Below, one piece after another: positions 1 through 899 of a stretch of 37,032 nt of DNA. A model generated the notes under the pieces. The model saw only the letters and a program-made list of their open reading frames with translations, did no database searches and had not been told where the DNA came from. The DNA comes from Planctomycetia bacterium (lineage in GTDB: Bacteria; Planctomycetota; Phycisphaerae; Phycisphaerales; SM1A02). The DNA lies in contig SYHM01000036.1 of assembly GCA_005799205.1 (NCBI GenBank), forward strand, positions 1 through 37,032. Direction: 5' to 3'. Numbering within the stretch: the stretch's first letter is position 1; each line of letters starts with the position of its first letter. The position numbers and the translations under genes were made by a program.

Positions 1-50
1 AGCGGTGGCGTGTGCGACGCCGCGCGGCCGCGCTCGCGCGCTCACCTGAA

Positions 51-137
51 CGGACAGGGGGAGATTCGAACTCCCGATACGGTTACCCGTATACAGCATT
101 TCCAATGCTGCTCCTTCAACCGCTCGGACACCTGTCC
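51..137 (-). tRNA. tRNA-Ser (anticodon GGA)
   Basis: On the minus strand a full cloverleaf can be drawn. The acceptor stem GGACAGG pairs with CCTGTCC, with discriminator G at position 51. The anticodon stem CAGCA/TGCTG encloses the loop TTGGAAA, giving anticodon GGA, which reads UCC and UCU codons. A long variable arm (TACGG/CCGTA around a short loop) is typical of class II serine tRNAs. The T-arm is GGGAG-TTCGAAT-CTCCC. The 3' CCA is not encoded. It lies head to head with truB, only 21 bp away. Confidence 0.95.
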
Positions 138-146
138 AGGGAGGAC

Positions 147-152
147 TAGTCT
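147..152 (+). promoter_or_regulatory. Putative -10 hexamer of a leaderless truB transcript
   Basis: TAGTCT lies 6 bases upstream of the truB ATG, so transcription would begin at or next to the start codon. The only Shine-Dalgarno-like run (GGGAGGA, 139-145) lies upstream of the hexamer, 13 bases from the ATG, which is too far for normal use. No -35 consensus is visible. Confidence 0.4.
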
Positions 153-153
153 A
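148..153 (-). promoter_or_regulatory. Putative -10 hexamer of the tRNA-Ser gene
   Basis: TAGACT on the minus strand ends 10 bases before the mature tRNA 5' end, as expected for a -10 element with a very short 5' leader. No TTGACA-like -35 is visible at the usual distance. It overlaps the opposing TAGTCT hexamer of truB; together they form the near-palindrome CTAGTCTAG. Confidence 0.4.
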
Positions 154-158
154 GCGAG

Positions 159-899
159 ATGGACGCACGACCGATCGGCGCGACAACTCTCGAAGGCATT
201 CTGCTGATCGACAAACCTGAAGGTCCCACCAGTATGCGCGTCGTCGAACGCGTCCGTCGCGCAGCGGGCGGTGTCCGCTGTGGACACGCGGGCACCCTTG
301 ATCCTCTTGCAACGGGGCTCCTCGTTGTCGCACTGGGTCGCTTCACCAAAGAGATCGACAAACTCATGGGTGGCGACAAGCGGTATGAAACCGTCATTGA
401 TCTCTCCGCGTTCACTGCCACCGATGACCGCGAGGGGGAACGCACTCACGTCGCGATCGACCACCCGCCAACGCAGCAACAGATTGAAGCGGCGCTCGAG
501 CGTTTTCGCGGATCGATCATGCAGACTCCGCCCGCGTTCAGCGCCGTCAAGATCGCTGGTCGCCGCTCCTATGACATTGCTCGGCGTGCAACGAAAGCCG
601 CTCAGTTCGATGACGCCTCCGTCCCTCCCCCACCAACTCGTTCCGCACCCCGCCCAGCACAGGTTCACGCACTCACCCTGCGCACATTCGCGTGGCCACT
701 CGTCACGCTCGACATCCACTGCGCGAAGGGGTTCTACGTTCGCAGTCTTGCACGCGAACTCGGCACTGCTCTGAAGACGGGAGGACATTGCATCTCGATT
801 CGCCGCACATGGAGCGCTCCGTTCTCGATCGAAAACTCGCGTGCGCTCGACTCACTCCCCGCCGTGCTCACCGCGAGCGATCTGATTCGTGTTCCGTGA
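159..899 (+). CDS. truB: tRNA pseudouridine(55) synthase TruB
   Basis: TruB converts U55 in the T-loop of tRNAs to pseudouridine in the cytoplasm. The protein has 246 residues. The catalytic motif GHAGTLDPLATG spans residues 42-53, with the nucleophile at Asp48. The base-stacking Tyr is in RYETVIDL (Tyr76). Both positions match E. coli numbering. FYVRSLARELG (about 192-202) is the other family signature. A Pro/Ser-rich insert sits around residues 147-170. The protein is shorter than E. coli TruB (314 aa) and shows no C-terminal PUA domain. The start follows TAGTCT-N6-ATG and has no properly spaced Shine-Dalgarno. The last 48 bp overlap the 3' end of lspA on the other strand. Confidence 0.95.
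   Translation: MDARPIGATTLEGILLIDKPEGPTSMRVVERVRRAAGGVRCGHAGTLDPLATGLLVVALGRFTKEIDKLMGGDKRYETVIDLSAFTATDDREGERTHVAIDHPPTQQQIEAALERFRGSIMQTPPAFSAVKIAGRRSYDIARRATKAAQFDDASVPPPPTRSAPRPAQVHALTLRTFAWPLVTLDIHCAKGFYVRSLARELGTALKTGGHCISIRRTWSAPFSIENSRALDSLPAVLTASDLIRVP

Follow-up and report, generated by a model that had tools for sequence, protein, structure and literature searches.

The tRNA-Ser(GGA) gene and truB, which point away from each other in the planctomycete DNA analysed here, very probably share a conserved bidirectional promoter in which two opposing -10 elements overlap in the symmetric core TAGTCTA (147-153, both strands), and the overlap is unlikely to be a product of chance. The window, by which we mean the whole analysed stretch of 37,032 nucleotides (contig SYHM01000036.1, positions 1 to 37,032), comes from a member of a little-studied group of aquatic bacteria and carries both genes at its left end. 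Comparison with related genomes brings out a recurrent TAGT[CG]TA motif, its symmetry, a fixed spacing to the truB start codon and an apparent constraint on the one position that only truB would use.

tRNA-Ser(GGA) lies on the minus strand at 50-138 according to ARAGORN and at 51-137 according to the Rfam tRNA model (54.6 bits), which places the mature 5' end at 138 or 137, respectively. truB, which encodes the 246-aa tRNA pseudouridine(55) synthase, is an open reading frame at 159-899 on the plus strand, recognized by Pfam PF01509 and by TIGR00431, against which it scores 174.7 bits at an equivalog cut-off of 151.45. An in-frame stop codon (TAG, 147-149) makes a truB start further upstream impossible, and no start codon other than the ATG at 159 is plausible. 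The sequence between the two genes is GGGAGGACTAGTCTAGCGAG, 21 bp long with the Rfam end at 137 and 20 bp with the ARAGORN end. In relatives, tRNA-Pro(GGG) lies on the same strand just downstream of tRNA-Ser(GGA) (L179, L181), and the two tRNAs may be co-transcribed there; the window contig stops before this point. Elsewhere in the window, 1514-2455 on the minus strand encodes a DksA/TraR-like zinc-finger protein of 313 aa with a long Lys/Pro-rich N-terminal extension, flanked by lspA and accA genes.

The near-palindrome CTAGTCTAG occupies positions 146-154 and contains both putative hexamers, TAGTCT for truB (147-152, plus strand) and TAGACT for tRNA-Ser (148-153, minus strand, read from 153 to 148). 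A sequence-only reading of this DNA had noted that the two hexamers have five bases in common within a 21-bp gap, and their coordinates hold, with 148-152 as the common bases and the gap shortened to 20 bp if the ARAGORN end is used. The -10 elements are inverted and overlapping, and the -11A and -7T of both directions are reciprocally base-paired (at 148 and 152), as in the Warman class of bidirectional promoters. The naive chance of finding TANNNTA in such a gap, given the base composition, is 2.5%. TANNNTA occurs only once in the 37-kb window against a first-order Markov expectation of 4.5. Among TA-TA spacings, TA-N3-TA is the least frequent in the window, and it is also the least frequent of the fourteen compared in 390 kb of the congener G005. 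In the window (1-37032) together with G005 (L159-L178), TA itself is depleted about 3.6-fold and TANNNT occurs at about half its Markov expectation. These rarities look as if selection acts against stray and bidirectional -10 elements. A second exact copy of CTAGTCTAG is present in the assembly within an apparent ORF. Taken by themselves, before relatives are considered, the window statistics are only suggestive.

On the tRNA side, the hexamer belongs to a common type. The 22 tRNA promoters inspected in the window genome and G005 have TANRCT-like -10 elements, including TAGACT at tRNA-His and tRNA-Tyr and TACACT at tRNA-Ser(GCT), tRNA-Leu, tRNA-Arg and others. A consensus sigma-70 scan of window positions 1-600 predicted no promoter, and such a scan misses the TANRCT promoters of the clade because it demands TTGACA/TATAAT-like hexamers. 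With the -10 ending at position -7, transcription of tRNA-Ser is predicted to start at 141 (~141-142) on the minus strand. In relatives in which the tRNA gene is linked to truB, a minus-strand TTG is found at -35 with a 16-bp spacer. It appears on the plus strand as a CAA at a fixed 19 nt beyond the 7-mer TAGT[CG]TA and falls within truB codons (GAC-AAC or AAC-AAG, for example); the TTG is retained in 43/64 genomes and 20/27 genera. The corresponding site in the window (170-175, minus strand) is degenerate, reading ATCGGT from 175 to 170 where relatives have TTGTCS or TTGTTC, and thus lacks the TTG that a sigma-70 -35 element with a 16-18 bp spacer would supply. The -35 of most relatives is gone in the window genome and apparently also in G015. 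The tRNA-Ser promoter resembles ordinary sigma-70 tRNA promoters in its TANRCT -10, its short leader and, in relatives, its TTG -35 at 16-17 bp, but differs from them in having the -35 within a divergent coding sequence and, in the window genome, in the degeneracy of that element.

On the truB side, the features point to a leaderless mRNA. The TANNNT hexamer ends 6 nt before the truB ATG, and with the -10 ending at -7 the predicted transcription start is the A of the start codon itself (159, plus strand). G005 has 24 cases in which a TANNNT ends exactly 6 nt before an ATG or GTG start, compared with about 2 at most other offsets, which suggests that leaderless genes are common in this Phycisphaerales genus. 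A smaller second peak of TANNNT lies at 9-10 nt. In the leaderless (TA-led) bacterial genes described by Zheng et al. 2011 (PMC3160421), a TANNNT precedes the start codon by about 10-12 bp; the class is known from other phyla and only hinted at in Planctomycetes (PMC5397173). truB is like these genes in its TANNNT and in the absence of a well-placed Shine-Dalgarno sequence, and differs from them in sharing that hexamer with the promoter of a divergent tRNA gene. GGAGG at 140-144 could be a badly spaced Shine-Dalgarno sequence; its distance to the ATG is 14 nt, and relatives do not keep it. Judged by -10 counts from these genomes, the truB hexamer is poor at its inner positions (-0.3 bits for TAGTCT and -3.4 bits for TAGTGT). 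The tRNA-side hexamer scores 1.9-2.3 bits, exceeding the truB side by 2.2 bits here and by 5.7 bits in the TAGTGTA form. The truB direction has no recognizable -35. A candidate -35 inside the tRNA gene (CGGACA, 125-130, 16-bp spacer) was dropped as a conserved element because the distance from the tRNA gene to the motif varies from 8 to 79 nt among relatives.

Of 101 related genomes, 96 yielded a truB locus, from which the tRNA-Ser spacer was extracted. The divergent tRNA-Ser(GGA)/truB pair is widespread in the family of the window genome (f1) and in the order. Spacers of f1 carry TAGT[CG]TA followed, mostly after exactly 5 nt, by the ATG or GTG of truB; this spacing is found in 57/64 relatives, and in G048, read by eye, it takes the form of TAGTGTA, five nucleotides and GTG. 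The tRNA gene lies 8-25 nt from the motif in relatives, except in G058 and G044 (72 or 79 nt), which are among the 57 and in which the motif has stayed with truB. Across 25 genera, columns 1-4 and 6-7 of the 7-mer are 96-100% conserved and column 5 is C or G. Conservation in the columns that flank it towards the tRNA gene is only 36-52%, compared with 96% T at position 1. The sequence-only reading had named conservation of the near-palindrome between the two genes in relatives as a check, and its promoter proposal passes it: the core dyad is kept wherever the gene order and a nearby truB start are kept. The conserved unit is TAGT[CG]TA and not the 9-mer CTAGTCTAG as such.

The two directions can be separated at the ends of the 7-mer. 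Numbering it T1 A2 G3 T4 S5 T6 A7, the truB hexamer comprises positions 1-6 and the tRNA hexamer positions 7-2, so that position 1 is needed by truB only and position 7 by the tRNA gene only. Position 1 is T in 63 of the 65 genomes (28 genera) whose truB has an in-frame start codon at 4-8 nt from the motif; the exceptions, G044 and G045, retain the nearby start and have another base. Among the 16 remaining loci at which truB adjoins, 7 have the T, and in genus g26, in which truB adjoins and starts elsewhere, position 1 is G, C or A throughout. Genomes that keep the T and have no in-frame start at 4-8 nt are G008, G013, G021, G033, G042, G056 and G151, with the start at 11-12 nt or unclear. The T is present in 5/33 split loci, at which tRNA-Ser(GGA) does not adjoin truB, and in 1/19 loci at another tRNA-Ser isoacceptor. 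Fisher tests that treat genomes as independent give 3e-17 against the split loci and 4e-15 against the other tRNA-Ser loci, and the weakness of the TruB single-gene tree means that these genome-level values overstate independence. At genus level, after exclusion of g75, a split genus of mixed state, the T is present in 26/28 genera compared with 0/7 (Fisher 5e-6). The TruB tree (85 rows) requires at least 11 changes at position 1 and 13 in the nearby-start trait, and by inspection all losses of the T, except those of G044 and G045, fall in lineages without a nearby truB start. A formal independent-pairs test on this tree is not significant, with only 4 well-supported pairs, too few to reach significance. 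The T equivalent to T147 appears to be held under constraint for the truB direction, the core dyad generally losing it when the truB start moves away. The proposal of two divergent -10 elements gains from this general loss of the truB-specific T where gene order or the nearby start is lost, and from the match of both hexamers to promoter classes found elsewhere in these genomes, namely the -10s of tRNA genes and of leaderless genes.

All five split loci with T at position 1 belong to genus g75 (L351-L355), and in each of them another ORF starts 9 nt after TAGTGTA. By phmmer (Geobacter SMUG1, E 6e-77) and Pfam (UDG), this ORF encodes a uracil-DNA glycosylase of the SMUG1 type. The six g75 congeners without the T have no ORF start that close to the motif. 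Position 1 thus tracks a close divergent gene and not truB as such, and the site may serve whichever divergent gene adjoins it. That a SMUG1-type gene can stand in for truB also speaks against a partnership peculiar to tRNA modification.

Two further families, f5 and f6, show a looser version of the arrangement. TANNNTA lies between tRNA-Ser and truB in 8/8 loci of f5 (shuffle expectation 1.2) and in 6/7 loci of f6 (shuffle expectation 0.9). The inner bases in these two families differ (TATCGTA, TATCCTA, TATGGTA), the truB leader is longer than in f1, and several f5 loci have an AAGGAG-like Shine-Dalgarno sequence. TANNNTA is found between the genes in 0/8 loci of f2 and 0/3 of f4, in which the tRNA -10 stands without the T, and in G099 at least, truB has a TACACT of its own, 7 nt before its ATG. 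As judged from these motifs, the order includes three families with a putative shared -10 and two with apparently separate promoters.

These features are best accommodated by a sigma-70-type bidirectional promoter with TAGTCTA (147-153) as its shared -10 core. RNA polymerase bound in one orientation would use TAGACT and transcribe tRNA-Ser(GGA) from about 141, and in the other orientation it would use TAGTCT and produce a leaderless truB mRNA beginning with A159, the A of the start codon. If each transcript starts seven bases beyond its -10, the predicted starts at 159 and 141 lie 18 bp apart. The tRNA direction would be the stronger one in most relatives, with its consensus -10, a G at -14 and the TTG -35 in truB codons, while the truB direction would depend on a weak -10. 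Two polymerases would exclude each other, truB being transcribed only while the tRNA direction is unoccupied, and a strong tRNA promoter may occlude truB. We infer the start sites, the leaderless translation of truB, the difference in strength and the mutual exclusion of polymerases from this geometry. In the known bidirectional promoters, starts on opposite strands lie 7-25 bp apart, with 18 bp the commonest distance in E. coli and Salmonella, and the initiating A pairs with a T at -18 of the opposite promoter (PMC12825309, PMC10268837); mutual exclusion of RNA polymerase has been established for this class in E. coli (PMC12825309). Here, A159 as the predicted truB start places a T at -18 of the opposite promoter; for the tRNA direction, the predicted start at 141 is a minus-strand C and not an A.

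To judge from its sequence, the promoter belongs to this known class in an unusual form. Like the Warman promoters (Warman et al. 2026, PMC12825309; Salmonella, PMC10268837), it has opposite-strand -10 elements offset by one base with -11A and -7T paired, and it shares with them, as predictions, starts 18 bp apart and a binding event in one direction that excludes the other. Unlike them, it would produce a tRNA and a leaderless mRNA; the truB start codon falls within the spacer between the tRNA promoter elements, and truB codons contain the site of the tRNA -35. It is also kept across a family, and more loosely in two others, whereas the Warman class is known from the start-site map of one strain. 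Bidirectional promoters have so far been defined by start-site mapping in a few species, and here sequence comparison alone reveals apparent selection on a shared -10 for both of its directions. A base that serves one direction, kept while a gene starts close by and mostly lost after the gene moves, offers a route to finding functional bidirectional promoters in uncultured bacteria. The arrangement also illustrates the compactness that a divergent gene pair can reach, in which the start codon and following codons would double as promoter DNA. A literature search returned no relevant prior report of divergent truB/tRNA promoters, of leaderless genes at bidirectional promoters or of planctomycete start-site maps.

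A simpler account would keep only the tRNA promoter, with AGTSTA as its -10, the leading T and the truB hexamer as accidents, and truB transcribed from elsewhere. AGTGTA by itself is a standard tRNA -10 in these genomes, and the weak inner positions of the plus-strand hexamer would fit a promoter of the tRNA alone. This account is nevertheless quite improbable, as the base before AGTSTA is T in 63/65 cases with a nearby truB start and rarely elsewhere, the flanks drift while that base stays nearly invariant, and the truB start codon is fixed at 5 nt while the distance on the tRNA side ranges over 8-79 nt. The dyad symmetry of CTAGTCTAG could also mark the binding site of a repressor or other regulator of both genes in place of overlapping -10 elements. 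We rejected a regulator-binding dyad, which we regard as highly improbable, on the ground that conservation on the tRNA side ends with the 7-mer; moreover, the same 6-mer stands at unrelated tRNA genes, and other families exchange the inner bases and keep only the key -10 bases TA...TA.

A further reading extends the bidirectional-promoter explanation, with which it is compatible, by making the shared -10 regulatory: strong initiation at tRNA-Ser would occlude truB, and a shutdown of tRNA promoters, as by the stringent response for instance, would raise truB output. The asymmetric promoter strengths favor such an effect, as does the direct competition seen in E. coli once one direction is activated, although five E. 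coli promoters tested at basal activity showed no competition (PMC12825309). The partner gene is also exchangeable, as with SMUG1 in g75, the pair is split in many lineages, and compactness alone could maintain the arrangement. On balance, we lean against regulatory occlusion while granting it some likelihood. We find it more doubtful again that the promoter is a polymerase switch conserved throughout the family, with TruB synthesis running inverse to tRNA promoter activity and rising, for instance, under stringent control. A functional coupling of tRNA-Ser supply and U55 modification is possible but unsupported. If mutual exclusion holds at the bidirectional promoter, a tRNA gene would compete with its modification enzyme for one polymerase site.

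A candidate for another leaderless bidirectional promoter lies in G005 (L173:15202-15208), where TAGGATA stands five nt before the ATG of an ORF beginning MAKARTVKGR and a divergent ORF adjoins.
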